In this document: positions 15,531-33,919 of the stretch, piece by piece | Layout: the number at the start of each line of letters is the position of its first letter | Numbering within the stretch: position 1 is the first letter of the stretch | Source of the DNA: Shewanella loihica PV-4 | GTDB taxonomy: Bacteria; Pseudomonadota; Gammaproteobacteria; Enterobacterales; Shewanellaceae | Reading direction: 5' to 3' | Assembly: GCF_000016065.1 (NCBI RefSeq) | Contig: NC_009092.1 | Coordinates: 3,844,001-3,908,000, forward strand | DNA: 64,000 bases | Position numbers and translations under genes: made by a program | The notes under the pieces: model-generated | The model's database searches: none | Told to the model about the DNA's origin: nothing | What the model saw: the letters and a program-made list of their open reading frames with translations, nothing else

Positions 15531-16301
15531 ATGATTAAGTCCATATCGACAGGTAGAACACAGCAGGGTTATTTCAGCCCGGTTGAAAAACAGATGTTCG
15601 GCGCTGCGTTACTGGCCGACCCCGACACCTCAAGCCCATTCTCCGATGTACTCAGCATTGCAGAAAGTGGATGTTCAAGCAGTTTGCTACAGCAACTCAC
15701 CAGCGTCACCAAGCGTTTTCGCCACCTCAAGCCGGAGCAATATCTGCTGCGCCAACAGGACCAGTTTGACTCGCTGTTTGTGGTCAAGAAGGGCGCCCTC
15801 AAGAGCTATCGTCTGACCCCGGAAGGCGAAGAGATAGTGACTGGCTTCTATATGGAGGGCGACGTCATAGGCGCCGGCGGCTTGGGTAACCACAAACACT
15901 TCTACTCTGTGGTGGCGCTGGAACCTTCGAGCCTGTATGAGATCCCCTTCGCCAAGTTGCTGCAACAATCCGCCATGGAGCCGATAGTGCAGCAGCTGAT
16001 GCTCAAGCTACTCAGTCAGGAGATGCAGGCAGATCAAAGCCTGAGACTTATCCAGCTTAAGCAGGTCAAGGCGGCCATCGCCTCGCTGATCCTCAACATC
16101 GCCAACCGCCTGACGGCAACCCAGATCACCCTGCCCATGAGCCGAGTGGATATCGCCAACCTGTTGGGGGTTGCCTCGGAGACCGTCTGCCGCGAGTTCA
16201 CCCGCCTGCAGAAGCAGGGGCTGCTGTCGGTCAACCGTAAGCATATCGTGATTAACGATCTTCCCCAGCTGCAGCTGGCGGCGGGCGGAGATTGCTACTA
16301 A
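15531..16301 (+). CDS. Crp/Fnr-family transcription regulator without Fnr cysteines
   Basis: The product has 256 residues; the ATG at 15531 is preceded by GAGGTG at the right distance. A cyclic-nucleotide-binding-type beta-roll (about residues 60-150, RHLKPEQYLLRQQDQFDSLFVVKKG) is followed by a dimer helix and a C-terminal winged HTH (SRVDIANLLGVASETVCREFTRLQKQGLL). The recognition-helix pattern is E-T-V-C-R, close to the Fnr E-x-x-S-R but with Cys for Ser. The N-terminal region has only one Cys (near GCSSS) instead of the Fnr 4Fe-4S cluster set, so oxygen sensing by a cluster is unlikely. The effector is unknown. Confidence 0.85.
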   Translation: MIKSISTGRTQQGYFSPVEKQMFGAALLADPDTSSPFSDVLSIAESGCSSSLLQQLTSVTKRFRHLKPEQYLLRQQDQFDSLFVVKKGALKSYRLTPEGEEIVTGFYMEGDVIGAGGLGNHKHFYSVVALEPSSLYEIPFAKLLQQSAMEPIVQQLMLKLLSQEMQADQSLRLIQLKQVKAAIASLILNIANRLTATQITLPMSRVDIANLLGVASETVCREFTRLQKQGLLSVNRKHIVINDLPQLQLAAGGDCY

Positions 16302-16449: not shown

Positions 16450-17277
16450 TAGGCCATAGATAGCTCTGACATCCTTGGCGGAGAAGATCCGCTCAGACAT
16501 CACAAATTCATCGATGATCCCCGGGAAACGCGCCTGGCCGAAGTTGGGATAGCCGCTGGGGATCCCGCCGATAAAGAAGTCATTCATGATAGAACCTACC
16601 TTGCGATCCAGGGTATCGCTGGCATCCAGCTCACCGTCGATATAGAGGTTGGCCTGATGACCATCGTGTACCAGGGCGATGTGGTACCAGCGATCGTTAC
16701 TGAGCACTGTGCGGGAGCGCACCGCCACCTCGGGGGAGAAGCCTGAGGCGTCATAGATCAGCAGCTCAAGATGCCCCTGATTGATCCTTAACTTGTTGCT
16801 CTGCACATCGCCATACCAGCCGCCGAGCAGAGGATAGATATCCTGTTCGTTGATAGCTAAAGGTTTAATCCACATCCCCATGCTGATACCGCCAAAGTCG
16901 AAGGTGATCTCCCGCCCTCTGGCCCGCTTCATCTCATCGCTCTTACAACAGATGTCGAACGCCACATAAGCCTGCTCATTGGCCTGCTCATTGGCAGAGA
17001 AGTCTATCCCCTGCCCCTTGATGCCAGGTACCCGCTTGCCACCCACCAGAGTACCTGTCCACACGGATCTGAAGGTATCGATAACTTCTTGATTTTGTTC
17101 CTCGAAAGACATCAAGGATGAGTGGCCATAGATGTTGACCTCCACCACCTTGAGCAGAGGATCGCCCTTACCGGCCCCCGAATCCAGCGGCTCATGCTGC
17201 CACAGGGTGATGCCAATGAAGCCGATAAGGATCAGAGACAGGGCGCCGGCGAGTTTGAGCAGAGGCGCATGCTTCAT
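16426..17277 (-). CDS. Membrane-anchored LamG/concanavalin-fold protein
   Basis: The product has 283 residues. An N-terminal hydrophobic segment (about residues 7-26) acts as a signal anchor or signal peptide. Residues about 80-270 look like a LamG-like jelly-roll domain: GGISMGMWIKPL, WYHIALVHDGHQANLYIDGELDASD, FFIGGIPSG and FPGIIDEFVMSERIFSAKDVRAIY are characteristic of that fold. Its ATG overlaps the TGA of the histidine kinase gene by four bases, so it is translated with the kinase and may be an extracytoplasmic partner of it. The ligand (carbohydrate or protein) is unknown. Confidence 0.82.
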   Translation of the reverse strand: MKHAPLLKLAGALSLILIGFIGITLWQHEPLDSGAGKGDPLLKVVEVNIYGHSSLMSFEEQNQEVIDTFRSVWTGTLVGGKRVPGIKGQGIDFSANEQANEQAYVAFDICCKSDEMKRARGREITFDFGGISMGMWIKPLAINEQDIYPLLGGWYGDVQSNKLRINQGHLELLIYDASGFSPEVAVRSRTVLSNDRWYHIALVHDGHQANLYIDGELDASDTLDRKVGSIMNDFFIGGIPSGYPNFGQARFPGIIDEFVMSERIFSAKDVRAIYGLVPKGTLN

Positions 17278-18770
17278 GATACCGGCCCCTGTTCGCTCTG
17301 CGGCTTGTTTTCCGATTGTGATTCAGGCTCAGCGACCAACTTCTCCCCCTGGGGCAGCAGCATGGTGAAGTCACAACCGCCAAACTCGTTGATACTAAAG
17401 AGCAGTTCGCCGTTGTGGGCATCGATGATGGTCTTACAGATGGCCAGGCCCATGCCCATCCCCTCCTGCTTAGTGGTAAAGAAGGGGGCAAAGATCTCCT
17501 TAGCCGCCTCGGCGTCTATGCCGCAGCCTCTATCGCGAATGCGTAAGCTTACCTTATCGCCACACACCTCGACCCAGATCTCGATAATGCTGTCGGGCGG
17601 GCTGGCCTCCATGGCGTTGCGCAGCAGGTTAAACAGCACCTGCTGTAGCTGCACCAGATCGCCGATAACCGTGAGCCGCTCGTCGGCGAGCCCTTGCACC
17701 AGGCTGACCTTATATTGTGACTCAAGTGTCTCCAGCAGATGGCTGGTGCTGGTCAGCAGCGCCTTGACCCCAATCTCGCTGCGACTGCTGGCCTGCTTGC
17801 TGATGAACTGACGTATGGTGCGGATCACCTCGCCGGCCCGCAGCGCCTGTTCGGTGATCTTCTCCAGCGCGTTAATCAGCGCCTCAGGCACACGCTCATC
17901 GCCCTTGTTAGTGCGCAGCGCGGCCTGGGCATAGGTGGCGATGGCCGTCAGCGGCTGGTTGATCTCGTGGGCGATGCTGCTGGCGATCTCCTCCATGCTG
18001 GTGACCCTGTCCATGTGGGCCAGCTGCTCGCGGCTGCTGCGGCTGTCAAATTCCGCCTCCTCCCTAAGCCTTAGCTCCTGCGCCAGCCTGGTCTGCATCT
18101 CGTTGAGCGCCGTCACCACAGTATCTAACTCATCCACCTCACCTCGGCGCGCAGGCATTCTGTCCAGAGTCAGGGCCGGCGCGTGGCCGTTAAGGGTTAA
18201 GGTGTGGGCGTACTGGCTGATCTTATTCAGATGGCGGGTCACCAGGTACTGGAACAGCAGCAGGATAAAGGCGGCGATCAGAAAGGTCTTCACCGCGGTG
18301 GCGATCAGGATAAACCAGATCTTCTGTTTGAGGCGCTCATAGAGGGGATCTAGCCCTGCCACCAGATGCAGTGTGCCCAGCGGCTCCTTGGCGTCTACAC
18401 TTTTCGTGGGATAGAGCAGGAACTTGGTATCTATCACCCTATCGGACATCACCTCGCCGGTGCGCTGTAACACGCGATCCCGCGCTATGATGCTGATGCG
18501 CTCGATATCCGGCAACTTGACCAGGCCGTCGATCAACAGCTGTAGCTGAGCGGGATTATTCTGCTCCAGGTAGTGGGCGATGCCGTCGAGGTGGGAATTT
18601 TGCACCTGCTCGATCTGCTGCTCAATCTGGACCACCTCGTCTTGATATTCCACATAGAGCTGCAGCGCCGACGACAGGATAGTGATCAGCACACTGAATA
18701 AAATAATGTATAAGATTAACCGCTTAGCGGTTCTACCGGTAAATGCGCCCAAATTGAATTTGCTTATCAT
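17274..18770 (-). CDS. FixL-like membrane sensor histidine kinase
   Basis: The product has 498 residues. Two membrane helices (about 16-39 and 151-175) enclose a periplasmic sensor of about 110 residues with LIDGLVKLPDIERISII. A HAMP-like linker (residues 178-235) is followed by the phospho-acceptor IASSIAHEINQPLTAIATYAQAALR (His268) and an ATPase domain with NLLRNAMEAS, DRGCGID, FFTTKQEGMGMGL. This H-box and catalytic type is that of FixL/DctB-class kinases, which pair with FixJ-type regulators; the only such regulator here is at 29857-30480. The C-terminus carries a short Gln/Ser/Glu tail. The LamG gene overlaps its end. Confidence 0.9.
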   Translation of the reverse strand: MISKFNLGAFTGRTAKRLILYIILFSVLITILSSALQLYVEYQDEVVQIEQQIEQVQNSHLDGIAHYLEQNNPAQLQLLIDGLVKLPDIERISIIARDRVLQRTGEVMSDRVIDTKFLLYPTKSVDAKEPLGTLHLVAGLDPLYERLKQKIWFILIATAVKTFLIAAFILLLFQYLVTRHLNKISQYAHTLTLNGHAPALTLDRMPARRGEVDELDTVVTALNEMQTRLAQELRLREEAEFDSRSSREQLAHMDRVTSMEEIASSIAHEINQPLTAIATYAQAALRTNKGDERVPEALINALEKITEQALRAGEVIRTIRQFISKQASSRSEIGVKALLTSTSHLLETLESQYKVSLVQGLADERLTVIGDLVQLQQVLFNLLRNAMEASPPDSIIEIWVEVCGDKVSLRIRDRGCGIDAEAAKEIFAPFFTTKQEGMGMGLAICKTIIDAHNGELLFSINEFGGCDFTMLLPQGEKLVAEPESQSENKPQSEQGPVS

Positions 18771-19406: not shown

Positions 19407-22400
19407 TTAACGATTCACTCTTCTGCGCCATCCGAAGGCGAGCAAGGCACCCAGCAGTAGCTGTAGACCCGCGCCCCCTTTCGACGAGCTGGTGTTATCG
19501 ACAATGTTGACGTTGGCAATGCTGTTGTCAGAGACGGCAACTTGCTCATCATCGCTCGACAGGACCAGGCTGAAGGACTCGGTCGCCTCCTCCTTGTCGT
19601 CCGCGCTGATGGCAACCACTATCTCCTTGGCCGCAGCGTCTTGGTCGGCCCAGATCAGCGTACCTTCCGCCAGGGTGAAGTCTTCACCGGCAGTGGCTGT
19701 ACCATCGACGGCGCGGTAGTTAACGCTCACCTCACCATCGACACCACCGAGACGCTCAACCATCAGGGTCACGCTGCCATCGGCCTCGTTCACCTCATAG
19801 CTTGTGGCCTTAAAGCCCACGGCGCCCGGCACCTTGGCTTCTACCGTCAGTGACAGCGGAATCGCCTGAGTACCATATGGAGTATCGCTTTGCAGCAGTA
19901 GCTGTACCTGATGCACGCCAGGCGCCAGGTCGCTGGTATCGACATCGAAGGTCACCTCTTGCTCACCGGCCACACTCAGCTGACCGCTGGTGTGAGACAC
20001 GTCAAGCCAGGTCACATCCTTATGGTCGCACACGCCGGTCTCACCAGAGGAGACGGTGAACATCTTGCTGCCTTCGATATCGACCAGACGCAGGTTGCCG
20101 TCACAGTCGATATCCAGACCCGTCTGACCATAGTTGCTCATGCCAGGGACATCGAGCGCGCCGATCATGCGGAAGTCGTCATGGCTATCCACAGTGTAGA
20201 TATCCAGCGCCTGATCCACCTTCTCTGAACCGGGATCTGCAGGACCATTGGTACTGATAAACAGGTGTCCCGTAGCCGAGTTGTAGGCCAGACCCGCAGG
20301 CGCAATGCCGACGTCCTTGGTCAGATGCACTTCGCCATCTTCGTTGAAGTAACTAATGCTCATCTTGTTAGAAACACCAGCGATGAAGTCACCCGATACA
20401 GGATCATAGGCCAGACCCGAGATGCCACCCACGCCTGGGCAGATTCGCTTACCTGTCACCATCAGCTTATTAGGATCGATCTCATGGATACAGTTGTCGG
20501 CAAACAGCGCCGCCTGCCACAACATGCCGGTGCGGCTGTTGAAGGCCAGATCGGTCACCAGAGCGTTTTCTGGTAGCATGGCGCTGAAGTCGATCACTTC
20601 ACCTATTAGCTTACCCTCGGCGCTATAGCGATACAGCTTATTGTCGCCACCAAACAACTTAACGTTGTTAACCCAGAGGTCTCCGGTGTTACGGTCGATA
20701 GTCGCGCTGTAGGGTACCGCCAGTCCCAGGCTAGACTTCTCGATAGACTCGCCAAAGCCAAGCTCTGCTTCCAACACAGGATTTTCCAGCTCGCCCTCGA
20801 CGGTCGCCGCCAGTTCACCCAGTCGGTAGTTCACTCCTCGGCTACCTACGTTCTTCACCGTCAGGCTCAGCTCGCTCTGCTTACCGCTACGCACGGTTGC
20901 TGCAAGCTCTGGCTTGTCCACTTCCAGCATACCCGCCTTAAGGCTAAGGTGCTGTACGGCAATCTTATTGTCGGTAACCGTCAACTGACTGTTGCTCACG
21001 CCATAGCCACTCTGGGTTGCCGAGATCACCTGATTACCAGCACTTTCAAACAGTCGATATTGCCCTTCGGTGTTGGTCGCTACCTGAGTATCGCCTAGCC
21101 ATACCTTGGCCTGTGCGATCGCCTCTTGGGTGTTGGCGTCTGTGATGTTACCCACGGCCAGACCACCCTGCTCCATGGAGCAGCCCAGACCAAACTCGAC
21201 ATCGTCGATCTGCGCCCACCAATCCCAGGCGAATTCGTTGGCATTATGGTAGCGCCAACGCAGACGGAAGTTGCTACCGCCCACCAAGGCTTCGCCGATA
21301 TCGACGTTAACCACAGTGCCTTGTTCGCTGGCATTGGCCGAGTGCAGGGTCTGCCACTCGCCGCCATCGACGCTGATATCCATGTCCAGGGCCGAGTCGC
21401 CGGATGGGCGGAAGCCCTCCTTGAAACGCACCGTGGTGAAGCCGCCCAGCTCGGCGACCGACATGATAGGCGTTAACAGTGATGAGTCGTATGCCTTACG
21501 GCCGCCCTTATCACTGTCGATCGAGGCCGCAAGCCCCTCACCCGTGGTGTTGTTAGGACGTTCCCACTGCTCGTTGGTCTTCCAGACAATGCCAGTACCC
21601 GCGGCATCGACCACTGTCCAGCCCTGAGGCGGGAAGTCTGGCGATTCAAAGTTCACCAGTGATGCGGTATTGGTATCTATCTTGCGATAACCCAGGGCGC
21701 TACAGACCTGCTTGTCTACCGCCAGGTTAAAGGCGAGACCACTCACGCCATCGCTACCAGGCACCAGATCCATGGTCTCTGGCTGATAGCCAGGTGCACG
21801 GGCGGTGATCGCCACGGGCCAGCCTTCGTAGCCTACGACGCTGAAGCTGCCATCGATCGCATCGGTAGCAATAGGCATAGTAGGGATCAGCTCACCGTTT
21901 TGGCTGATCGCACCGGGTACGCCCCAGCCGTGGCCTGAACCATCGCTGATCTTGCCCGAAATCGTTACCTGAGGCATCTCGGTCAAGACCACGTTGCGCT
22001 CAAGATCGGCATCCTTGGCCACAGAGACACTGCCCTGACTCGCCTTGGTATGACCGTAGGCACGGGCCGACACCTGATAATCACCCACAGGCAGTTGCAG
22101 CTGATACTTACCTTCCTCATCGGCCACAGTGCTGTAAGGTCCGGCAACCACTTCGGCGTTCGCCAGTGGCAGGCCAGTGACGCTGTCGGTCACCACACCG
22201 TGAAGCATACCGGTAGGATCGGCCACACAGTTAGGGAAGCTGAACTTGCCGATACGGGTAGCCCACATAGACTCGAAGTCATGGTCGGCGCCATATTCCT
22301 GGGTATACCAGAAGCTACAATCGTCCGTCGGATCGATTGTCATCATGCTGCGCTTACCATAGTGACCATCGAAGGAGTTCACCTGGGCCGCCTCGGCGTC

Positions 22401-23945
22401 CACCAGCACCTGCTCAGCCAATGAGATCTGACCCAGTGGATCGCCATTCAGGCGACCGGTATAGCGTACAGAAGGCAGCATCTCTTCACCCGAGATGGCA
22501 AAACCCATGCCTATGTTGCCCGAGGCATCCATCGCCATACTCGCCAGCCAGCGGTGGTTAACATCAGGGGCATAGCTGCCCTGCTGGAAGATCTCGGCAC
22601 CTGCACCCAGGTTGCGGATCTCATACCAACGTACGCCGAAGTGTTGCTCGCCCACGTCAACCGTATGGTTAACCACCAGGCTCTGGTGATCGCCAAATTG
22701 TCTGAAGGCGGCGCGGTACATCAGCTTATCCTGGTAGGCTTTCAGGGCGTTGTAAGAATCGCCGCCCCAGGAATCCTGCTCGATACAGGTATTGCCACAG
22801 GCCTCATTGATATCGAATGGCTCGGTCGCCAGCGCGGCAACCTGGCTGAACTGACTGTTTTGCGGGTTGTTCCAGTCGGCCTTGAAGGCCCACACCTGGA
22901 TCTCATCCTGGGCGCTGCCATGGACCTTGTCGTCCTGCAGGCTGAGGAAGTAGTTAGGGGTACCGGCGGCAGGGGCGCGCTTACCGTCGAGATCCACCGG
23001 CAGCAGGTTAGCTGTCAGCGGCGCATCGAAATAGATAGAACGTGCGGGTACGCCGTAGAGCATCTTGTCACGCTCAAACACCACGGCGGCGGTGCCGGCT
23101 TTGCTGTTGTCGCTCTTGTTGTGTTGATTGGCCGACAGATAGTAACCGTCGCTCCATACGCCGAGCTGGGCGCCGTTGTGCCACTTGTCGCCGTTTAATT
23201 CAAATTCATACAGATGCCAGTCGCCGGTAGGATCGCTGGTCTTTGAGACGGCGAAACACTGACGGCTCTCTTTACCCGAGACATAGGCGTTTTGGGTCAC
23301 GACCCAGCGGTCGGCGAGCTGATCGTAAAGCACGATAGGCTCACGCTCAGTGGTCGGGCTCTCCCAGGGTTTAGCGGGAGCCGGGTTGGCATTAGGGTCG
23401 CCACAGACACCGCCCAGACGCTTCCAGAACTCTGTCATCGGGGTGCGGTCAACCAGCAGGTTACCCTCTTTGTCCCACACGGCAAACGCCATGTTAACCA
23501 CCTGAACATAGTGGTCACGGCCGACATCGCCCGCCGCATCAGGCATTGGTGCCTCATCGAAACCGCTACGGGTCAGGCCATCGAAGTTCAGCTCGGGGGC
23601 CGGCATGGCGCCCGAGCCTGGCTCGGCTTGCACCGCGGTGTCGCTGTACTGTTCCAGTGCCACGGCCGAGGCCATCTGCTCCTGGTATTGGGCTTCCATC
23701 AGCGCCTGGTTCGACGCCGAGATGCTAGGTTTGGCCAGTTTGGTCTGAGCTGTCGGTTGGAATTTTAGTTTATTACTCACCAGCATCTTGTTGGCGAGTT
23801 TCACCAAAGGTGTCGACGACGCTTGGTTCAATGACTCCCCGACGACCGGAGAGCTGGCTGCACAAGAAAAGGCGCTGACCGTCGCCAATAATCCCGCTAG
23901 CCCCACAGAGCTGCAGCCTTGCCATGTTGACTTTTTGATACCCAT
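19407..23945 (-). CDS. Giant secreted multidomain protein 1 with GlyGly-CTERM
   Basis: The product has 1512 residues. The start at ATG 23945 is supported by AAGGAG seven bases upstream and a signal peptide (about residues 1-30). Residues about 120-575 form an uncharacterised module (DAAGDVGRDHYVQVVN, EPIVLYDQLADRWVVTQ, CFAVSKTSDPTGDWHLYEF, LGVWSDGYYLSANQ). Then come a carboxypeptidase-regulatory-like domain (about 580-655), a second beta domain, a choice-of-anchor-J/MAM-like domain (about 765-922), another regulatory-like domain (about 928-1003), NHL/propeller-like repeats (about 1075-1310), a Calx-beta domain (about 1375-1480) and a C-terminal Gly-Gly, hydrophobic helix, Arg-Arg-Arg tail (GlyGly-CTERM, a rhombosortase substrate). 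Paralogous to the gene at 24848-29455. It is likely exported by type II secretion. Function unknown. Confidence 0.88.
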   Translation of the reverse strand: MGIKKSTWQGCSSVGLAGLLATVSAFSCAASSPVVGESLNQASSTPLVKLANKMLVSNKLKFQPTAQTKLAKPSISASNQALMEAQYQEQMASAVALEQYSDTAVQAEPGSGAMPAPELNFDGLTRSGFDEAPMPDAAGDVGRDHYVQVVNMAFAVWDKEGNLLVDRTPMTEFWKRLGGVCGDPNANPAPAKPWESPTTEREPIVLYDQLADRWVVTQNAYVSGKESRQCFAVSKTSDPTGDWHLYEFELNGDKWHNGAQLGVWSDGYYLSANQHNKSDNSKAGTAAVVFERDKMLYGVPARSIYFDAPLTANLLPVDLDGKRAPAAGTPNYFLSLQDDKVHGSAQDEIQVWAFKADWNNPQNSQFSQVAALATEPFDINEACGNTCIEQDSWGGDSYNALKAYQDKLMYRAAFRQFGDHQSLVVNHTVDVGEQHFGVRWYEIRNLGAGAEIFQQGSYAPDVNHRWLASMAMDASGNIGMGFAISGEEMLPSVRYTGRLNGDPLGQISLAEQVLVDAEAAQVNSFDGHYGKRSMMTIDPTDDCSFWYTQEYGADHDFESMWATRIGKFSFPNCVADPTGMLHGVVTDSVTGLPLANAEVVAGPYSTVADEEGKYQLQLPVGDYQVSARAYGHTKASQGSVSVAKDADLERNVVLTEMPQVTISGKISDGSGHGWGVPGAISQNGELIPTMPIATDAIDGSFSVVGYEGWPVAITARAPGYQPETMDLVPGSDGVSGLAFNLAVDKQVCSALGYRKIDTNTASLVNFESPDFPPQGWTVVDAAGTGIVWKTNEQWERPNNTTGEGLAASIDSDKGGRKAYDSSLLTPIMSVAELGGFTTVRFKEGFRPSGDSALDMDISVDGGEWQTLHSANASEQGTVVNVDIGEALVGGSNFRLRWRYHNANEFAWDWWAQIDDVEFGLGCSMEQGGLAVGNITDANTQEAIAQAKVWLGDTQVATNTEGQYRLFESAGNQVISATQSGYGVSNSQLTVTDNKIAVQHLSLKAGMLEVDKPELAATVRSGKQSELSLTVKNVGSRGVNYRLGELAATVEGELENPVLEAELGFGESIEKSSLGLAVPYSATIDRNTGDLWVNNVKLFGGDNKLYRYSAEGKLIGEVIDFSAMLPENALVTDLAFNSRTGMLWQAALFADNCIHEIDPNKLMVTGKRICPGVGGISGLAYDPVSGDFIAGVSNKMSISYFNEDGEVHLTKDVGIAPAGLAYNSATGHLFISTNGPADPGSEKVDQALDIYTVDSHDDFRMIGALDVPGMSNYGQTGLDIDCDGNLRLVDIEGSKMFTVSSGETGVCDHKDVTWLDVSHTSGQLSVAGEQEVTFDVDTSDLAPGVHQVQLLLQSDTPYGTQAIPLSLTVEAKVPGAVGFKATSYEVNEADGSVTLMVERLGGVDGEVSVNYRAVDGTATAGEDFTLAEGTLIWADQDAAAKEIVVAISADDKEEATESFSLVLSSDDEQVAVSDNSIANVNIVDNTSSSKGGAGLQLLLGALLAFGWRRRVNR

Positions 23946-24080
23946 CAAAAGTCTCCTTATTATAGGTTTACCTTGGCTCACGTCGTCATTGGGCGCCCTA
24001 AGACACACTCTTATCTAAAGTCGCCGCTAAAGTTGACGTGATTTGCCGTTATTCGATGCTTGTGTGTATACCAGTGATAC

Positions 24081-24086
24081 AAACTA
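24081..24086 (-). promoter_or_regulatory. -10-like element of giant gene 1
   Basis: TAGTTT on the reverse strand starts 18 bases after the end of the 22-bp inverted repeat, the same spacing as TAGTGT and TAAGGT at the two other copies. The weak match to TATAAT fits an activator-dependent promoter. Confidence 0.55.
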
Positions 24087-24103: not shown

Positions 24104-24125
24104 CCAACTGACAAAGATCAGTTGG
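24104..24125 (-). promoter_or_regulatory. 22-bp inverted-repeat operator, copy 1 (giant gene 1)
   Basis: Perfect 8-bp inverted repeat: CCAACTGA, spacer TCTTTG, TCAGTTGG when read toward the giant gene at 23945. It is identical to the copy at 30613-30634 and nearly identical to that at 29603-29624, all in the same orientation relative to their genes. It lies about 160 bases before the start codon and immediately after the stop codon of the gene at 24128. Confidence 0.85.
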
Positions 24126-24127
24126 GC

Positions 24128-24778
24128 TCAAAGATTGTGCGCTAACTGCGCCTTAAGCTTTTTGGCCTTGGCCAGTAACGCCTGTTGCTGGGCCTGATAG
24201 GCAGGCACGGCATCTACCAGCGTGTTGCCCACGGTGAAGGCGGCGGCATACTTGGGCTGCTTGATACGCTCTTTCTTATCCAGATACTTGTCGCTGCCAT
24301 GCTTGAACTGCTCGAGACGCGGTGACAGCGCCGCAATGGCGTCCAGTGACTTATTGGTCGCCTGAATCACCTGGGCCAGCTTGGCCGGGTCTTGCTCGGC
24401 TTCGATGGCCACATCCAGCTTGGCGTTGACCTCGCTCGCCTGCGCCAGATAGGCGTTCAGTTGCTCGGCGTAGGGATAGCTGCCCTGACTGAAATCCACC
24501 GAACTGAGCGGCGATAGGGTGTTAAGCGCCGGCAGGTAGTTGTCGCGCTGATCCTTGGCGAAATGGGCCGAGATGGCCATAAAATCCAGCATCAGCTGTG
24601 ATTGATCTTGATTGAGTTGATGATAGGGATCGTTGGCCACCTCGCGGGCATGGGCCAGATCGCGCCAGCCTACCGTTTGGGTTTCGGCTTGGGCGTGTGT
24701 TTCGGTTTGAGTTTCGGCCTGAGCGCCGCTCGCCAGCAGGGCGATAGAGATGGTAAAAGCAGAGAGGAAACGTGACAT
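24128..24778 (-). CDS. Small secreted helical protein
   Basis: The product has 216 residues. A signal peptide ends LLASGAQA, followed by a short Gln/Thr/Glu-rich stretch and a mostly helical, Ala/Gln/Leu/Lys-rich body. The start follows GGAGAA. No motif or catalytic residues are recognised. It sits between the two giant paralogues on the same strand, behind a terminator (24811-24838), and its stop codon is two bases from the operator of the next gene, so transcription may partly depend on read-through. It probably works with the giant proteins, but that is only context. Confidence 0.75.
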   Translation of the reverse strand: MSRFLSAFTISIALLASGAQAETQTETHAQAETQTVGWRDLAHAREVANDPYHQLNQDQSQLMLDFMAISAHFAKDQRDNYLPALNTLSPLSSVDFSQGSYPYAEQLNAYLAQASEVNAKLDVAIEAEQDPAKLAQVIQATNKSLDAIAALSPRLEQFKHGSDKYLDKKERIKQPKYAAAFTVGNTLVDAVPAYQAQQQALLAKAKKLKAQLAHNL

Positions 24779-24810
24779 ATCGAATTCTCCAATGTGAATG
24801 CTAAAGGTAA

Positions 24811-24838
24811 AAAGCCAGCGCGAGGCTTCGCGCTGGCT
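24811..24838 (-). terminator. Terminator after the second giant secreted-protein gene
   Basis: GCCAGCGCGA pairs with TCGCGCTGGC around GGCT; on the reverse strand it is followed by TTTTTACC. Confidence 0.85.
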
Positions 24839-24847
24839 TAATCACAC

Positions 24848-27800
24848 TTATGAACGACGCGCTTGGCGACGGTTAAACAGTGAACCGACACCCAGTAGCA
24901 GAAGCAGGACTGGGCCTAAGCTACCGCCGCTGGACTTTTTGTCTTCCAGCTCAACCGTGGCAATGGTTGCCGAGTTCAGGGTCGCACCACCCGTAGGTTG
25001 TGACAGGGCGACGCTGAAGGACTCCATCGACTCCTCGACATCATCGCTTAGCAGCTTGACGCTGATGGTCTTGTCGGCCATGTCCATGTCGTCCCACTTG
25101 ATGACGCCCCAGGCGGCTTCGAAGTCTTCACCCGCCTTGGCCGTTGCATCCAGAGTGCGGTACTCCAGGGTCAGGGCGTTGTCGCTACCACCTTGACGTG
25201 AAACCGTCAGGGTCACAGTGCCATCGGCCTCGTTAGCCTCATAGTGAGTCACGGCAAAGCCAAGTACGCCAGGGACACGTTCATTCACGGTCAGTTTCAC
25301 CGGAATAGACTGCATCTTGTATGGGCTGTTGCTGTTGAGCAGCACCTGAACCTCATACTCGCCCGGCGCCATGTTGGCGGCGTCCACATCCAGGGTCACC
25401 TGCTGGTTACCCGCGACGCTCAGGTCACCGACGTTAGGCTGTAGCGACAACCAGTTCACATCCTGGAAGTCACACACGCCAGTCTCGCCAGACTCGATCT
25501 CGAACAGCTGCTGCGCCTCGATATCCAGTGCCCAAAGATGGCCCTGACAGTCAATCGTCAGACCCGAGCCACCGCCGTCGGCACGACCGTCGATAGCGTA
25601 ACCGCCGATCACCTGGTAATCGTTAGCCACATCCAGGATGTAGATATCGATATCCATAGGCTTAAAGCTGTTGGTCGCCACAAACAGGTGCTGTGATGTT
25701 GGGTTGAAGGCTAAGCCTGCGATAGGCAGACCCACATCGGTCGACTCAAGCAGAGTGCCGTCGCTGCCAAAGCGATGGATCAGGCCGTCGATGAATGAAC
25801 CCGAGAAGAACTGGTCGTTCACCGCGTCATAGGCCAGGCCGCGCTGCGAGGTAGTCACATCTGGACAAAGACGCTTGCCAGTGGCCTGCTTCTCAACCGG
25901 ATCCAACTCGTAGATACAACGCTCACCGCCCACCATGATCTGCCACAACTTGCCGGTGCGGCTGTTGTAGGTCATACCGGCGTGGGCACCACGGGTAGTC
26001 ATCAGCGGATGCAGGTCGATCTTGTCTTCTGTCTTGGTACCATCTTGCTTGAAGCGATAGACCTTATCGTCACCACCAAACACACCCAGGTTGTTGATCC
26101 AGAGATCGCCCGTTGACTGGTCGAACACCACGCCGTTAGAGGCAACCAGATCGACTGCCCAGCTCTGTACCACCTGGCTCTCTTCGAGATCCGCCTGTGG
26201 CAGAATGTAAGGCACGCGGATCTTACGTGTCGTCAGATCCCACAGGTTCTTAGGTCCAAACTTACGACCACCGATAGCCAGCTTAGGCCCTTCGACAGGT
26301 GCGGCTAACGGCGCGTTGATCTCGCCTAGCTTAAAGGTCAGATCGTTGCTGCCCGAGTTTTGGATCTCAAAGGTTTCGCTCAGATTACGACCACTGGTCA
26401 CCGCCAGCTCGATGGTTTCAGTTTCAGAGCTGAGACGACCCGCCTTGACACTGAAGTCCTTGGCAGTGACGTCATCGGCAGTCACGCTGACATTTTCATT
26501 GACGTCGGCGTAGCCTGCCTGATGCAGGTTAATCTGCTGCTCACCCTCGGCCGAGAAGATCACATACTGACCCTGATGATCGCTCACCGCCTTGTTGCCC
26601 AGACCGTCGACGATCTCGACGTTAGCCACAGGCAGCTGAGTGTTGAAGTCGGTAATGGTACCGGCCACCAGGCCACCCTCTACCGAGCTACAACCGCGGG
26701 CGATTGAGATATCGTCCACCTGAGCCCAGTTATCCCACTGCTTGGTATCGCCATAGATGTGGTGATAGTGCCAACGCAGGCGGAACTCGGTCGCACCGGC
26801 CACTTCACCGGCCAGGTCGTAGTCCACCAGACGCTCACGAGTCGTATCTGGATAGCTCAGTAGCGTCTTCCAGGCACCACCATCGACACTGATATCCAGG
26901 TCAACCATAGAGCCGCCGAAGATGCCGCCGACGAAGTCCAACTTGAACTGCAGCGCGGTGCTATCTTCCAGGGCACTGACCTGAATGCTTGGCGAGACCA
27001 GACTGGTGTCATACTTACCCCAGCCGTAACGGTCGTTATCTACTGCCGCCGACTTGCCGCTACCACCGGTAAAGTTAGGGCGATCCCAAGCGGTATTAGT
27101 ACGCCACTCGATATCATCACCAGTTGCATCATTAACCACTGTCCAGCCCGCAGGTGGAAAGGTTTCGCCGTCGAAGTCTTCGACGATACCGTAGGCCTTG
27201 TAACCCGGGGCACTACAGACGCTGTTGTTTACATCCAGCGCTAAGGTGACACCGTTGGCGATCTGAGTATCGCTCGCCACGAAGTCCAGCGACTTCTCGT
27301 TGTAGCCGTTCAGCGCCGTAGAAGCGGTTATCTTATAGCCCCAGCCCTGGTACACCTCGACGCTAAACTCACCGGTTGCCGGGTCGTTCATCAGCTCAAA
27401 GTTTGGTGCCAATTCGCCAGCAAGGGCCAGCTTGGCCGCCAATGGCCAGCCGTGACCACTGTTATCCACTACCTTACCGGTTAGGGTAACCAGAGGTAGC
27501 GGCGACAGTGAATCGCTCAGCGTCTGCTCACTATCTTCGGCGATCGCCAGATCCGCGTGCTTGGCTTCTTGGTAGCCGTAGGCGCGAACGCTCACGTCAT
27601 AGCTGCCCACAGGCATGGTCACTTCATAGTGGCCGTTCTCGTCGGTAAAGGCGGTTACTGCGCCGGCTTTCACCATGGCGTTAGCCAGTGGCTTGCCTTC
27701 GACGCCGGTCACTGTGCCGACCAGGGTACCCTGAGGACCCGTAGTACAGTTAGGGAACTTGAAGGAGCCGATGCGAGTCATCCAGTCGATGTCGCCGGCG

Positions 27801-29455
27801 TTCAAGTCGCCATAGTATTCCTGGGTATACCAGAAGGTACAATCATCCACAGGATCCACGCTCATGGTGCTGTAGTCACCCCAGCGACCGTTGGCGCCGC
27901 GTTGTGAACTACCACCGGCTACCAGCTCGTTTTCACCCTGTGGCATGGTATTTAGGGGATCCGATGCCAGACGGCCGGTATAACGTACCGACGGATAGGT
28001 GTTAGGGCCAGAGACTGTGTAACCCAGGGCGATGTTGCCCACGGCGTCCATGGCGACACTGCCCATCCAGCGGGTATCGCCATCAGGCGCGTAGCTGCTC
28101 TGCTGGTGAACCGTCGGCGTGGTGCTTGGGTTGCGGATCTCGTACCAACGTGGGCTCCAGCGGTTGGTATCGGCGTCACCGGTAAACACTGTGTGGTTGA
28201 GCACCATGGCCTCGTGATCGCCAAAGTTACGATAGGCGAGACGGAACATGAGACGATAAGGAATACGGTCCAGATAGTCTTCGCTGCTCACGTCAGGCTG
28301 AGGAATACAGCCGCCCTTACAGCCACTGAACTCCATGCCGGTCACCGGCAACATGGCGATCTGCTCGAAGGTAGACTGCTCTGGATTTTGCCAATCTGTC
28401 TTGAAGGCCCAGATATGCAGCTCATCGGTGGCAGGCCCCTGGCTGTCATCGATAGGTTGCACGAAGTAGTTTGGTGCGCCTTCGGGTGGCGGCGTCAGAC
28501 CATCGAGGTCGGCCGGTAGCATACCGCCCAGCTCTGGTGCAGGATCGTCGAAGTAGACCATGCGGGCTGGTTCGCCGCGCAGCATCTTCTCACGCTCGAA
28601 CACCACGGCGCCGGCGCCGCCCCACTGATCTTCACGACCATCGAGGTAGAATTGGTTCACCGACATATAGTAACCGTCTGGCCACACACCGAAGTGCGGG
28701 TAGTCGTTCATCTTGATGTCGCTGATCTTAAAGTCATACAGGTGCCATTCACCGGTAGGATCCGGCGTCTTAGACACGGCGACACACTCGTGGTAGTCAG
28801 ACTGGTTGATGGCGAACTGGCTCATCATCCAGCGATCCGCCAGGGAATCGTAGAGCACGATAGGGTCACCATCGTTGTTCTGGGCACAGATGCCCCCCAG
28901 GCTCTTCCAAATCGCATTGGTGGGCGTTGGCGGGATCAGTTGATTGCCCTGCTTGTCCCAGATGGCGAAAGAGACGTTAACCATCTGCACATAGTGATTC
29001 GGGCCGACATCGCCTGTGGTATCGGGCGGGGCAACACGGTTGATATTGTCGATGCCGTCGAAGCTCATCAGCGGCGATGGCATGTTGTCGCCGAGGAAGT
29101 CACGCTGCACGGGATCGGCTGCGCCCAGGGCTAGGACGCCCATCGTCTTATTGGATTTGCTCAGGCCAGAGGCGCTCTTACCCATGCCACCAACGAAGGG
29201 GAGTTCGAAGTTTTGGATGATTTCGCTGGTCTTACGGGTGGTTTCACCGGACGCCGAATCCATCTTACCGCGCACAAGACGTGCCTTGGTATCTTTGCTC
29301 AAGTTGAGCGCAATATCGCGCAGCGCAGGGATAGTGACGTTATTAACAGACTTACTAACCACAGGTGCTGACGCAGCAGCCTGGGCGTGATTCACCGCCA
29401 TCAGGCTGACAAAGCCGAGACACAGGCTGTTGTATAATGTTGACTTTTTGAACAT
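24848..29455 (-). CDS. Giant secreted multidomain protein 2 with GlyGly-CTERM
   Basis: The product has 1535 residues, starting at ATG 29455 after AGGAGGC, with a signal peptide ending NHAQA. It has the same domain order as the protein at 19407-23945: the uncharacterised N-terminal module (DTTGDVGPNHYVQMVN, DPIVLYDSLADRWMMSQF, HFGVWPDGYYMSVNQF), carboxypeptidase-regulatory-like domain, choice-of-anchor-J-like domain (DGETFPPAGWTVVND), a second regulatory-like domain, a propeller region (NGVVFDQSTGDLWINNLG), a Calx-beta domain (VTHYEANEADGTVTLTVSR) and a C-terminal Gly-Gly, Leu-rich, Arg-rich tail. The two genes arose by duplication and have diverged considerably. It is likely exported by type II secretion and trimmed by rhombosortase. 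Function unknown. Confidence 0.88.
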   Translation of the reverse strand: MFKKSTLYNSLCLGFVSLMAVNHAQAAASAPVVSKSVNNVTIPALRDIALNLSKDTKARLVRGKMDSASGETTRKTSEIIQNFELPFVGGMGKSASGLSKSNKTMGVLALGAADPVQRDFLGDNMPSPLMSFDGIDNINRVAPPDTTGDVGPNHYVQMVNVSFAIWDKQGNQLIPPTPTNAIWKSLGGICAQNNDGDPIVLYDSLADRWMMSQFAINQSDYHECVAVSKTPDPTGEWHLYDFKISDIKMNDYPHFGVWPDGYYMSVNQFYLDGREDQWGGAGAVVFEREKMLRGEPARMVYFDDPAPELGGMLPADLDGLTPPPEGAPNYFVQPIDDSQGPATDELHIWAFKTDWQNPEQSTFEQIAMLPVTGMEFSGCKGGCIPQPDVSSEDYLDRIPYRLMFRLAYRNFGDHEAMVLNHTVFTGDADTNRWSPRWYEIRNPSTTPTVHQQSSYAPDGDTRWMGSVAMDAVGNIALGYTVSGPNTYPSVRYTGRLASDPLNTMPQGENELVAGGSSQRGANGRWGDYSTMSVDPVDDCTFWYTQEYYGDLNAGDIDWMTRIGSFKFPNCTTGPQGTLVGTVTGVEGKPLANAMVKAGAVTAFTDENGHYEVTMPVGSYDVSVRAYGYQEAKHADLAIAEDSEQTLSDSLSPLPLVTLTGKVVDNSGHGWPLAAKLALAGELAPNFELMNDPATGEFSVEVYQGWGYKITASTALNGYNEKSLDFVASDTQIANGVTLALDVNNSVCSAPGYKAYGIVEDFDGETFPPAGWTVVNDATGDDIEWRTNTAWDRPNFTGGSGKSAAVDNDRYGWGKYDTSLVSPSIQVSALEDSTALQFKLDFVGGIFGGSMVDLDISVDGGAWKTLLSYPDTTRERLVDYDLAGEVAGATEFRLRWHYHHIYGDTKQWDNWAQVDDISIARGCSSVEGGLVAGTITDFNTQLPVANVEIVDGLGNKAVSDHQGQYVIFSAEGEQQINLHQAGYADVNENVSVTADDVTAKDFSVKAGRLSSETETIELAVTSGRNLSETFEIQNSGSNDLTFKLGEINAPLAAPVEGPKLAIGGRKFGPKNLWDLTTRKIRVPYILPQADLEESQVVQSWAVDLVASNGVVFDQSTGDLWINNLGVFGGDDKVYRFKQDGTKTEDKIDLHPLMTTRGAHAGMTYNSRTGKLWQIMVGGERCIYELDPVEKQATGKRLCPDVTTSQRGLAYDAVNDQFFSGSFIDGLIHRFGSDGTLLESTDVGLPIAGLAFNPTSQHLFVATNSFKPMDIDIYILDVANDYQVIGGYAIDGRADGGGSGLTIDCQGHLWALDIEAQQLFEIESGETGVCDFQDVNWLSLQPNVGDLSVAGNQQVTLDVDAANMAPGEYEVQVLLNSNSPYKMQSIPVKLTVNERVPGVLGFAVTHYEANEADGTVTLTVSRQGGSDNALTLEYRTLDATAKAGEDFEAAWGVIKWDDMDMADKTISVKLLSDDVEESMESFSVALSQPTGGATLNSATIATVELEDKKSSGGSLGPVLLLLLGVGSLFNRRQARRS

Positions 29456-29579
29456 AGTCAAAAGCCTCCTAGTTATTTTATTACTACCAAAATTGCACCT
29501 TAAGTCCGTGTTACCCACTTAGCATCGATGCGAATTTTTGTCGTTTGAGTGTGGTTGGTTCGTATACACAAGCTGTTTC

Positions 29580-29585
29580 ACACTA
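29580..29585 (-). promoter_or_regulatory. -10-like element of giant gene 2
   Basis: TAGTGT on the reverse strand begins 18 bases after the operator, the spacing shared by all three copies. Confidence 0.55.
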
Positions 29586-29602
29586 CAGGCAGAAATAAAT
29601 AA

Positions 29603-29624
29603 CCAACTGACAAAGATCAGTTTG
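29603..29624 (-). promoter_or_regulatory. 22-bp inverted-repeat operator, copy 2 (giant gene 2)
   Basis: Reads CAAACTGA, TCTTTG, TCAGTTGG toward the giant gene at 29455, one base different from copies 1 and 3 in the distal half-site. It is about 148 bases before the start codon. Confidence 0.8.
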
Positions 29625-29856
29625 GCGAAAAAAAGCGCCGGCTCACTCGGCTCGGCACGCAGGAACGCCGTCGCCAGAGCCGATTGGCTTGAACTCGCGG
29701 CTGACCGAGCAGGCAAAAAATTGAGCAAGAAGTTCGAGACAGAAGATTGAGATAGAAGATTAAAATGGAGAATTCGATGTAACGAAAACTATCTTAGCTT
29801 AGAAAGCCAAGACGGTTAGCGAATGAATGAGTAGGTGGTGAGGCGGACGCCCTAGG

Positions 29857-30480
29857 TCAGGCGTCTGAAGACTTGATCAACGTGATGTCGTGTACCAGTT
29901 CGGCCAGGGAGTCGCAGGTCATCTTCTCCATCACCCGGGCGCGGTGGATCTCCACGGTGCGTTGACTCAGCTCAAGCTCGATGGCGATAAGCTTGTTGGA
30001 TTTCCCCATGACGATATTGTCGAGGATCTCCCGCTCACGTCCGGTAAGAGTCGCCAGGCGTTCTTTTATCTGACTCAGCTGCTGATGCACCAGACGCAGC
30101 TGCGCCTCCTGCTCCAGCGCCAGATTGATGCGATCCAGCAGCTCCTGATCGCGAAACGGCTTGGGGATGAAGTCGAAGGCGCCTTGGCGCATCGCCTTGA
30201 CCGCCATGGGCACATCGCCATGACCGCTGATGAAGATGATAGGTAGGGATACCTGACGCTCGTTTAGCTTCTGCTGCAGCTCCATGCCGCTCATCTTGGG
30301 CATGCGCACGTCCAGCACCAGACAGCCTCTCATCTGCGGCGAATAGTCGTCGAGAAACTCCTGCGCCGAGCAGTACAGCTTGCAGGGTAGGCCGACGGAC
30401 TCCATCAGGAAGGCCATCGCCTCGCGGATCGCCTCGTCGTTATCGACAATGTATACGGTTTGCTCTATTTGTTGCGCCAT
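29857..30480 (-). CDS. FixJ/TtrR-type response regulator
   Basis: The product has 207 residues. The receiver domain has IVDNDEA, the phospho-acceptor CLVLDVRMPKMSG (Asp57), FISGHGDVPMAV and the Lys in IPKPF. A C-terminal LuxR/FixJ HTH (TGREREILDNIVMGKSNKLIAIELELSQRTVEIHRARVMEKM) follows. It is very close in type to TtrR and FixJ. No kinase is adjacent; the FixL-like kinase at 17274-18770 is the likely partner, and the ttr operon at 34-39 kb is an alternative target. It is divergent from the TonB receptor gene, with one operator copy between them. Confidence 0.92.
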   Translation of the reverse strand: MAQQIEQTVYIVDNDEAIREAMAFLMESVGLPCKLYCSAQEFLDDYSPQMRGCLVLDVRMPKMSGMELQQKLNERQVSLPIIFISGHGDVPMAVKAMRQGAFDFIPKPFRDQELLDRINLALEQEAQLRLVHQQLSQIKERLATLTGREREILDNIVMGKSNKLIAIELELSQRTVEIHRARVMEKMTCDSLAELVHDITLIKSSDA

Positions 30481-30612
30481 CGGCTCATAGGGTCTCGTTT
30501 TGTTATCTATCTAGGGTATTGCATCGAACTGGGTGAATTCAATCTAATTTTCCCGCACATCTGTCGCCCCGCCCCTCAGGCCCATTTACTTGCCTAGGAA
30601 AAATAGTTTTGC

Positions 30613-30634
30613 CCAACTGATCTTTGTCAGTTGG
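30613..30634 (+). promoter_or_regulatory. 22-bp inverted-repeat operator, copy 3 (TonB receptor gene)
   Basis: CCAACTGA, TCTTTG, TCAGTTGG, a perfect 8-bp inverted repeat identical to copy 1 and oriented toward the receptor gene. It lies 52 bases before the receptor ATG and about 130 bases before the response regulator start on the other strand. Confidence 0.85.
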
Positions 30635-30651: not shown

Positions 30652-30657
30652 TAAGGT
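30652..30657 (+). promoter_or_regulatory. -10-like element of the TonB receptor gene
   Basis: TAAGGT starts 18 bases after the operator, matching the spacing at copies 1 and 2. The proximal half-site thus covers the -35 region. Confidence 0.55.
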
Positions 30658-30686: not shown

Positions 30687-32579
30687 ATGTCTTTATCTTT
30701 GAACAGAATCACTTCATCGATACTCACATCGCTCCTCGTGTTGACCTCTTCATCGGGGTTGGCCGCGCAGTCGATTGAACGTATCACCATCAATGGCAAC
30801 AGGAATGCCACTCAGAGTCCTGTTGCCACGACGGCGAACGTCAATACCCTTAATCCGGACGACAGCGATTCGACCCCGACTAACCTAGCACGTTTGTTGC
30901 ATTCCGTTCCCGGAATTAGTTTTGTCGGCCAGGGAGGGCTTTTTCAAACCGTCGGACTCAGGGGGATGTCCCGTTGGCGAGTGCCAACCTTTATCGGTGA
31001 CATTCCGCTCTACACAGAACGCCGGGCCGGAACGACAGCTTCATTCATACCGCCGCAATTTCTCGAATCGGTCAATGTGATCAAGGGGCCCTCCTCCACC
31101 TACTATGGCTCAGGAGCCCTGGGTGGTCTGGTGCAGCTCAACCCCAAGCACGCCCACAATGTGGCGGCCAGCCTGACCCTGACCGATGCCAAGTATGATC
31201 AGCAGACCCTGGAAGCCGGTAACGAGCAGTGGTCCGTGGCGTTGTCGAGACAACACGCCGGCAATAGCGAAGATGTGCAGGGCAACACCCTATATGATCA
31301 TTTCGACCAGCAATCTGCGCTGATCGATCACCACTGGGCATTCGACAATGGCCTGGAGAGCGACACCTTTTACCTCTACAGCAATGGCGACGACATAGGT
31401 AAGTCCAGCAAGGACTATCCCAACAAGAAGATCGTCTCCTACCCGGACGAGCAGCACCACCTGCTGCAATGGCGCCTGACACGGCCTCACGACTGGAGCC
31501 TGAGCCTGTTCGCCCACGACCAGAGCCTGGAGACTGAGACCATACGCCCGGCAAAACGGGTCAACACTGTCAGTAACGAGTCGCTGGATCTTGGTGGTCA
31601 CTGGGTCAAGGAGTGGCAAGGCGGCGACTTCAATGGCCGCTGGGGCGCCGATTATATCGCACGTCGTGGCGTCAAGGCTTCGGAGTTCGAGCGGTCGCTG
31701 AAAAATGACAGCACCAGCCAGCAGCAGAATATCGATGCCAGCCAGGATGAATACGCCCTATTTGCCGACGCCAGCACTCAACTGGATAGCTGGCAACTGG
31801 TGGCGGGGATGCGCGCCGCGCGCTATCAACAGTCCGGCGAGGGGGCAGAGGATCACTCAGACACCGCCGTCACCGGATTTATCGGCGCCGTCTATACCCG
31901 CGGCGAGCAGCAGGAGTGGAAGATTAACCTGGGCAACGCCTACCGCTTCCCTTCGCTGACCGAACACTACTACAGCGGCAGCACGGGACGTGGCACCATA
32001 GTGGCCAATAGCGACCTAGTGCCAGAAAAATCCACCACGGCCGAGCTGACCCTCACCGATGTCTATGGCGACTTCGCCTGGCAGCTGGCGGCCTACTACT
32101 CACGCGTCAGCGACTATATCGAGCGCGTCAGCATCGCCGAGGAGACGCTCAGCTATCGCAACGTCGACAGCGGCAGCATCAAGGGGCTGGAATATCGCAT
32201 CGACTGGCGCCCCAGCGAGCAGTTTACCCTGGGTAGCACGGGCCAGTGGATAGACGCCGTCAGCGACGAGGGCGATCGCCTGGCCGATGCCGGTCGCAAC
32301 GAGCTTGGCGTCAACATGGAATACAGATGGTCTGACTTTAGTTTCAGCACAGGCTATCGCTACCTGGCACCGGTCAAGGAGCCCGCCTCGGGCGAGCTGA
32401 CCCGCGATGCCGCCAACCTGGTCGAGGCCGCCATGCGCTATCAGATCACCCCGAACCTGTCGGCAAAGGTGTGGAGCGAGAACCTCACCAACGAGAGCTA
32501 CTTCTATAGCAGCGACGAGTTAGCGACCCTGGCTCGGGGCAGGCAGTTTGGCATCACCCTGAGCTATCAATTTCAGTAA
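30687..32579 (+). CDS. TonB-dependent outer membrane receptor
   Basis: The product has 630 residues. The ATG at 30687 follows GGAGTAAG and opens a signal peptide ending SGLAAQ. A plug domain (about residues 50-160) shows LARLLHSVPGISFVGQGG, VGLRGMSRWRVPTFIGDIPL and VIKGPSSTYYGSGALGGLVQL; the 22-strand barrel follows, ending with an ITLSYQFQ strand. NAYRFPSLTEHYY and GLEYRIDWRP are typical of heme/siderophore-type receptors, but the substrate cannot be told. It carries the same promoter operator as the two giant genes, so it may import what their products bind or release. Confidence 0.9.
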   Translation: MSLSLNRITSSILTSLLVLTSSSGLAAQSIERITINGNRNATQSPVATTANVNTLNPDDSDSTPTNLARLLHSVPGISFVGQGGLFQTVGLRGMSRWRVPTFIGDIPLYTERRAGTTASFIPPQFLESVNVIKGPSSTYYGSGALGGLVQLNPKHAHNVAASLTLTDAKYDQQTLEAGNEQWSVALSRQHAGNSEDVQGNTLYDHFDQQSALIDHHWAFDNGLESDTFYLYSNGDDIGKSSKDYPNKKIVSYPDEQHHLLQWRLTRPHDWSLSLFAHDQSLETETIRPAKRVNTVSNESLDLGGHWVKEWQGGDFNGRWGADYIARRGVKASEFERSLKNDSTSQQQNIDASQDEYALFADASTQLDSWQLVAGMRAARYQQSGEGAEDHSDTAVTGFIGAVYTRGEQQEWKINLGNAYRFPSLTEHYYSGSTGRGTIVANSDLVPEKSTTAELTLTDVYGDFAWQLAAYYSRVSDYIERVSIAEETLSYRNVDSGSIKGLEYRIDWRPSEQFTLGSTGQWIDAVSDEGDRLADAGRNELGVNMEYRWSDFSFSTGYRYLAPVKEPASGELTRDAANLVEAAMRYQITPNLSAKVWSENLTNESYFYSSDELATLARGRQFGITLSYQFQ

Positions 32580-32956: not shown

Positions 32957-33919
32957 ATGAATATTGATAAACTCGATTATCATTCGCTGATCATTTTCGA
33001 ATCCATCAGTCGTCACTTGAATGCAGGCCTGGTCGCCAATGAGCTGGGGATGAGCATCTCTTCGGTCAGCCGTCACCTTGGCATACTGCGCGATATCTTT
33101 AAGGACGTACTCTTCATCCGCCGGGCACAAGGGTTTGTCTTATCAGACAAAGCCATACAACTCCTGCCTTACATCAAGCAGTTGCTCCATGACTATCAGG
33201 TGATCAAACACAACCATATTCATTTCAATCCGCTCACCGCCCGGGGCCACTTTAAGATCTACGCCTATAACGAATTCACCTATGTGATCAACAAGGTGAT
33301 TCATCAATATATATTGCCTCAGGCGCCTAATTTAACCTTCGAGGTGCGCACCCTCTCCAGCGACTGTAGCCGCGCCATAGAACATGGCGAGATTGACTTT
33401 GCCGTCGTCTACGAAAGGTTTAAAGATCACAAGATCATCTGTGAGATGTTTTCCCCCACCGAGGAGCTGTTTTTAATCGCCAAGGAGGGACATGCGGTAT
33501 TTGAAGATGAATTTACCTTGGCCAACTTATGCCAATATGATTATTTCGCCCTGGATAATTATAACGATCTGCCCATGCCGCTACTGGAACAACTGGGTAA
33601 GACGGAAGGCAAGGCGGTTAACGTGCTCGGTGCCACAGACAATATCGCCGCCCTGAGCCGTCATATTCTCGATGGACGCGCCATCTCCATGAGCTGTAAC
33701 GTCTTCACCCGCGAGTTTTATTCGCTGATCAAGGGAATACGAACCGCCACACTACCAAGCGCTCTCACCGAACGCCTACTCAAGCAGATCACCGTTGGTC
33801 GCACGGTCGGCAATTACCTCATCTACTCGGAGATCAACCAGTCTCCCACCCACCACTGGCTCAAGCAGCAGCTATTTAACGGCATACGTGATGAGTGGTA
33901 TCTGGCCATGGGCCGCTAA
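32957..33919 (+). CDS. LysR-family transcription regulator
   Basis: The product has 320 residues. An N-terminal winged HTH (DYHSLIIFESISRHLNAGLVANELGMSISSVSRHLGILRDIF) is followed by a substrate-binding-type effector domain (from about residue 95: GHFKIYAYNEF). It is convergent with the ttr operon, which lies just downstream, so it could regulate it, but LysR proteins more often control a divergent gene and the upstream neighbour is the TonB receptor. The effector is unknown. Confidence 0.87.
   Translation: MNIDKLDYHSLIIFESISRHLNAGLVANELGMSISSVSRHLGILRDIFKDVLFIRRAQGFVLSDKAIQLLPYIKQLLHDYQVIKHNHIHFNPLTARGHFKIYAYNEFTYVINKVIHQYILPQAPNLTFEVRTLSSDCSRAIEHGEIDFAVVYERFKDHKIICEMFSPTEELFLIAKEGHAVFEDEFTLANLCQYDYFALDNYNDLPMPLLEQLGKTEGKAVNVLGATDNIAALSRHILDGRAISMSCNVFTREFYSLIKGIRTATLPSALTERLLKQITVGRTVGNYLIYSEINQSPTHHWLKQQLFNGIRDEWYLAMGR

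Follow-up and report, generated by a model that had tools for sequence, protein, structure and literature searches.

A 22-bp inverted repeat at three promoters of Shewanella loihica PV-4 is likely a class II activator site of an FNR-like regulator encoded in the same block

Two genes for giant secreted proteins and one for a TonB-dependent receptor lie in a 64,000-nucleotide stretch of the Shewanella loihica PV-4 genome (hereafter the window), each preceded by a copy of a 22-bp inverted repeat, CCAACTGATCTTTGTCAGTTGG, which raises the question of what reads this sequence and whether it ties the three promoters into one regulon. A pattern search of the window found three copies, at 24104-24125 and 29603-29624 (minus strand) and at 30613-30634 (plus strand), exactly where a sequence-only reading of this DNA had put them, and bore out its description of copies 1 and 3 as identical and of copy 2 as one base off (base 2, C to A). 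The downstream genes are those named in that reading, with every copy in the same orientation relative to its gene: giant secreted protein 1 (19407-23945, minus strand; Calx-beta and CarboxypepD_reg domains), giant secreted protein 2 (24848-29455, minus strand; a beta-propeller predicted at residues 106-590) and the TonB-dependent receptor (30687-32579, plus strand). Copy 1 starts two bases past the stop codon of a gene for a 216-aa protein (24128-24778, minus strand), which itself lies 69 bp downstream of giant gene 2 on the same strand and is presumably co-transcribed with it. As set out below, we consider the 22-mer a likely CRP/FNR-type class II activator site, to which an FNR-like regulator encoded at 15531-16301 (plus strand) would bind and so drive all three promoters.

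The palindrome is two-fold symmetric, with a layout of 8+6+8 over its 22 bp and a TGA-N6-TCA core; TGA-N6-TCA within 22 bp is the spacing of CRP/FNR sites. At all three promoters the half-site is CTGA (CTGA-N6-TCAG, with CCAA/TTGG flanks) and not that of TTGA-N6-TCAA; relative to FNR's TTGA, the TGA is kept and the first base is changed from T to C. Dinucleotide shuffles of the window contained no match to the 22-mer at up to three mismatches, and the three sites are all that the whole genome (one contig, 4,602,594 bases) holds at that threshold, with none of the many unrelated matches that the sequence-only reading had named as grounds for abandoning the idea. The exact core AACTGA-N6-TCAGTT occurs precisely three times in S. 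loihica PV-4 and in each of two other genomes of the genus, G040 and G044. Cores with one mismatch number 7, 7 and 4 in these genomes, near the 4, 3 and 6 obtained with a reversed-pattern control, and were rejected as further regulon members; six of the seven in S. loihica PV-4 coincide at least in part with stop-to-stop frames 80 or more residues long (in one case only with frames of 116 and 85). The seventh, TACTGAAATTGCTCAGTT at position 396673 of this genome (L243:1074), one mismatch from the core, lies outside such frames and is present in all three genomes; to judge by its sequence, it is a possible weak fourth site. In keeping with the earlier statement that no described operator of this sequence is known, the central CTGATCTTTGTCAG, looked for in one orientation, was not found printed in the open literature searched.

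The conservation of the operator was assessed in 129 genomes of the genus, S. loihica PV-4 included. The 22-mer occurs at up to three mismatches in 12 of these, and the full trio in three (S. loihica PV-4, G040 and G044; nine sites, each with 0 or 1 mismatch), a comparison that rests on three near relatives inheriting the whole block together. The nine other genomes have one three-mismatch match each, and the reversed control pattern gave 4 matches in 3 genomes. A search upstream of orthologues in related species, which had been proposed as a check, thus finds the motif in two related genomes, where copies 1 and 2 are unchanged and copy 3 is unchanged in G044 and altered at base 21 (G to T) in G040. 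Together with the C to A at base 2 of copy 2, this alteration amounts to one and the same base-pair substitution at two mirror-image positions, which is what a site read by a symmetric dimer should show. The asymmetric spacer TCTTTG, correctly described as conserved in the sequence-only reading, is identical and in the same orientation in all nine copies, and a symmetric dimer gives no requirement for this. Part of the spacer can be read as an FNR-like TGAT, in the upstream half only. A LysR-type regulator encoded downstream of the receptor gene (32957-33919) is also close by and conserved (92-99%) in both other genomes, but LysR sites have the form T-N11-A, whereas the palindrome is even, with TGA-N6-TCA, and we regard binding by this protein as highly unlikely.

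What the three promoters share beyond the 22-mer is a spacing. It had been noted that a TAnnnT -10-like hexamer begins 18 bases downstream of every copy, and the gap is indeed 17 bp in all three (TAGTTT at 24081-24086 and TAGTGT at 29580-29585, minus strand; TAAGGT at 30652-30657, plus strand), the sole TAnnnT gap common to the three copies among gaps of 0 to 59. In mononucleotide shuffles, any common TAnnnT gap within 10-25 arose in 9 of 100,000 trials, a figure that is not a clean probability because TAnnnT had been chosen after the fact. The 17-bp gaps of the three copies are unrelated in sequence (2, 6 and 0 of 17 bases in common), and the aligned receptor promoters show the 22-mer clearly set off from diverged 5' flanks. 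Since the sequences outside the 22-mer are unrelated, the spacing appears to have been kept, rather than whole promoters having descended together. In G044 the hexamer of copy 3 is TAATGT, in which T, A and T are kept and the middle is altered. TATACA at copy 1 (gap 33) and TATACG at copy 2 (gap 36) match TATAAT at four of six positions, against three of six for the common hexamers, but the latter are preferred because copy 3 has no such second candidate.

With the -10 placed at -12 to -7, the centre of the palindrome falls near -41, over the -35 region, and by eye none of the three promoters has a TTGACA-like -35, as would be expected of activator-dependent promoters. The class II arrangement previously suggested is therefore supported by the position over the -35 and the 17-bp gap, that is, by position relative to predicted starts. 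In the public record of E. coli nirB the gap from operator to -10 hexamer is likewise 17 bp, and TAAGGT, the hexamer of copy 3, is what we take to be the -10 of nirB. Were the palindrome to act in RNA instead, as a hairpin serving as terminator or 5' leader element, its stems of 9, 7 and 9 pairs in copies 1-3 (z -2.64, -2.19 and -0.89) and the place of copy 1 directly behind a stop codon would make sense; but no T run follows copies 1 and 3, 34 of 200 shuffles fold as well as copy 3, and neither the constant distance to TAnnnT nor the identity of the loop would be explained, making this reading very improbable.

Which protein might bind at these promoters? A search for Crp-type helix-turn-helix domains in eight genomes identified one in the window (16077-16274), counterparts near the cluster in G040 and G044, and none in the five others. 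The 256-aa product of 15531-16301 scores above the cut-off for PF00027, PF13545 and PF00325 (cNMP_binding, HTH_Crp_2 and Crp); the combination of a cNMP-binding-like domain with a Crp-type helix-turn-helix places it in the CRP/FNR superfamily, and the best matches of its structure model are FNR crystal structures (ranks 1-11). This gene, which the sequence-only reading does not name, is a good fit for the site in three respects: the geometry, the recognition helix and the distribution. Its orthologues (86-97%) are found in 3 of the 129 genus genomes, its own included, and these are exactly the holders of the trio; 125 others have a single match at 32-37%, and one has none at threshold. Two of these 32-37% proteins, one from S. 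loihica PV-4 itself (L182) and another from elsewhere (L210), are FNR/EtrA-like, with the cysteines and VETISR.

The recognition helix of the regulator, SETVCREF, keeps the Glu and Arg of FNR, has Cys (Cys220) in place of Ser-212 and has Ser as the residue before Glu; FNR's recognition set of Glu-209, Ser-212 and Arg-213 is thus incomplete. To judge from sequence, the change in the helix (Ser to Cys) fits that in the site (TTGA to CTGA), which is suggestive. Cysteines are found only at positions 48, 220 and 255: the regulator lacks the N-terminal cysteines that its FNR-like relatives have, and where those relatives have the Cys of CEIPF it has Tyr. Because these ligands are absent, the regulator is not FNR proper and should be unable to sense oxygen in FNR's way, and its signal would not be an FNR-type [4Fe-4S] cluster. 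Only candidates with short words in common were compared in a search of 5.8 billion proteins, and the nearest relatives it returned were two Shewanella orthologues (P0001, 91%; P0002, 86%) and one further close relative (P0003, 51%; helix SEAVCREF). SE(T/A)VCREF is common to the window protein and P0001-P0003, and P0004-P0012 are FNR-like, with ET(V/I)SR. The genome encoding P0003 was looked for in sets without a known positive, with outcomes of 0 of 3, 0 of 40 and, of 152 genomes, just the three known ones. When an order sample of 394 was searched with the window protein, nothing above 39% was found outside its own genome.

The changed half-site also bears on whether EtrA, the FNR of this genome, or Crp could bind the 22-mer as a degenerate FNR or CRP box. 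Both are encoded in the genome and the geometry of the site is the same, but both half-sites differ from TTGA, and likewise from TGTGA, at the same base, and we consider such binding quite improbable. An FNR-like match is present in nearly all genus genomes while the trio is confined to 3 of 129, an argument that weighs little because the target genes are also restricted to the three trio genomes (plus 39-48% homologues in two more). The available portion of a survey of Shewanella regulons names Fnr, Dnr and, for nucleoside use, the new Crp-family regulators DeoR* and PnuR, and contains no mention of the 15531-16301 gene (PMC3223726).

The binder put forward in the sequence-only reading was the response regulator at 29857-30480 (minus strand), which, phosphorylated by the sensor histidine kinase at 17274-18770 (minus strand; CHASE5, HisKA), would bind the 22-mer and activate. 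This protein belongs to the same block, its gene is transcribed divergently from that of the receptor and lies at most 250 bp from two operators, and its orthologues (98-99%) occur in the same two other genomes of the 129, with remaining matches at 44% or less; the kinase, too, is present in the blocks of both relatives. Distribution therefore does not single out the binder, since the response regulator has the same distribution as the FNR-like gene. Its family membership argues the other way: it is FixJ-like over its full length (244.5 bits against NF006900 FixJ, cut-off 255), whereas the published FixJ sites given in the available portion of PMC4999443 (TAAGTAATTTCCCTTA, GTAGTTTCCC and GTAMGTAG) are unlike the palindrome, as judged by eye for TAAGTAATTTCCCTTA and GTAMGTAG. 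In addition, the half-site pattern was absent, with as many as 3 of 16 mismatches allowed, from 21 loci with relatives of this response regulator at most 55% identical to it (404,036 bases; 21 of 80 loci found). The response regulator is thus an unlikely reader of the 22-mer, and the earlier choice of binder was probably wrong.

With the FNR-like regulator as preferred binder, the response regulator could, by analogy with FixJ acting on fixK, possibly work upstream, on the FNR-like gene. A FixJ-like site upstream of that gene, TAGGTATTTTCCGATC at 15385, seemed convincing by eye; it scores 11 of 16 and was not counted, because 193 of 400 mononucleotide shuffles score at least 11. The distance from the FNR-like gene to the nearest operator is 7.8 kb, and no operator-like site was found upstream of this gene at up to 5 of 16 mismatches. 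Long blocks upstream of the gene, at 15376-15450, are conserved, among them GTTACA-N5-GTTACA and a pair, GCAAATATAGGT...ACCTAGGGACATTTGC, that forms an imperfect inverted repeat.

As for the targets, the two giant proteins are paralogues (42-44% identity in matched parts) with Calx-beta and carboxypeptidase-regulatory-like domains, and the receptor is nearest to haemin receptors, under the family cut-off. Outside the three genomes, 16 giant-gene loci from 14 genomes were retrieved with their surroundings, and 13 of these stretches hold a receptor homologue, 12 of them on the same strand (L163, L170 and L171 have none); six of the loci come from one genus and hence are not independent. The operator thus joins genes that are often neighbours elsewhere. 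When 17 stretches holding giant-gene homologues from genomes other than these three (318,401 bases in all) were scanned, the best hits were 2 with 3 of 16 mismatches, so nothing suggests that the giant/receptor pair had the operator ancestrally. At one locus (L159, in G054) the giant-gene homologue, beside a receptor-gene homologue, has internal stops. Behind giant gene 1 in the window follow a 141-aa gene and then the kinase gene, all on the same strand, an order from which operator 1 may also drive the kinase.

Further sequence features were noted around the starts of the giant genes. Both start codons lie inside short inverted repeats of the form TTGA-N6-TCAA (23930-23952, ACTTTTGATGGGTATCAAAAAGT, and 29444-29464, CTTTTGACTATGTTCAAAAAG; minus strand), which could represent either DNA palindromes resembling an FNR box or mRNA hairpins across the start codon; apart from one loop base of ACTTTTGATGGGTATCAAAAAGT changed in G044, they are unchanged in G040 and G044. 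Between operator and start, GCTTGTGTGTATAC (24058-24071) and GTATACACAAGC (29562-29573), both given for the plus strand, are near reverse complements of one another.

Taken from sequence comparison of three near relatives, the arrangement is most probably a class II activator regulon private to an FNR paralogue that has no Fe-S cysteines. As a homodimer, this FNR-like regulator would read the two CTGA half-sites in adjacent major grooves and, seated over the -35 region with its centre near -41, would recruit RNA polymerase to three weak promoters, so that the two giant secreted proteins and the TonB-dependent receptor would be switched on together; the two-component pair of the block may set the level of the regulator or act beside it. 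One elaboration, which taken as a whole we find unlikely, is that Cys220 not only sets the altered CTGA specificity but also serves as sensor in place of the iron-sulphur cluster that was lost, with oxidation, nitrosation or metal binding at this DNA-contact residue switching the regulon off; the conserved asymmetric spacer would then reflect a second, directional input, for instance from the FixJ-like regulator. If the FNR-like regulator is indeed the activator, this would be an FNR paralogue without the oxygen-sensing cluster whose half-site has shifted by one base and whose base-reading residue has changed to match: a small example of joint divergence, in which a regulator and its operator have moved away from a global regulator and towards a three-promoter regulon. 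It would also give giant surface propeller proteins and a TonB receptor, which form an uncharacterised pair in several genera, a place in a single regulated function.

Among the closest known systems are the class II promoters of FNR (E. coli nirB; FF-41.5), with which the three promoters share a two-fold TGA-N6-TCA, the 17-bp gap to the -10 (nirB) and the regulator fold. The three promoters differ in having a CTGA half-site with CCAA/TTGG flanks where FNR has TTGA, a regulator without the [4Fe-4S] cysteines, and three genomic sites where FNR has a global regulon. The Cys in place of Ser-212 is shared with P. putida PP_3287, an FNR-family protein for which the available portion of PMC4505428 reports a [4Fe-4S] cluster and, in preliminary gel shifts, binding to a TTGAT site; Ser-212 to Cys alone therefore need not give CTGA specificity. 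In gene content the block recalls the FixLJ-FixK cascade of rhizobia, since it brings together a FixJ-like regulator, a kinase leaning towards FixL (the best score of its catalytic part, at 170.7 of 850 bits and far under the cut-off) and an Fe-S-less FNR relative that has FixK2 among its structure matches (4i2o, rank 13). Here, however, the kinase has a CHASE5 sensor domain, the FNR-like gene has no significant FixJ site upstream, and the targets are a receptor and secreted proteins, reached through CTGA rather than TTGA.
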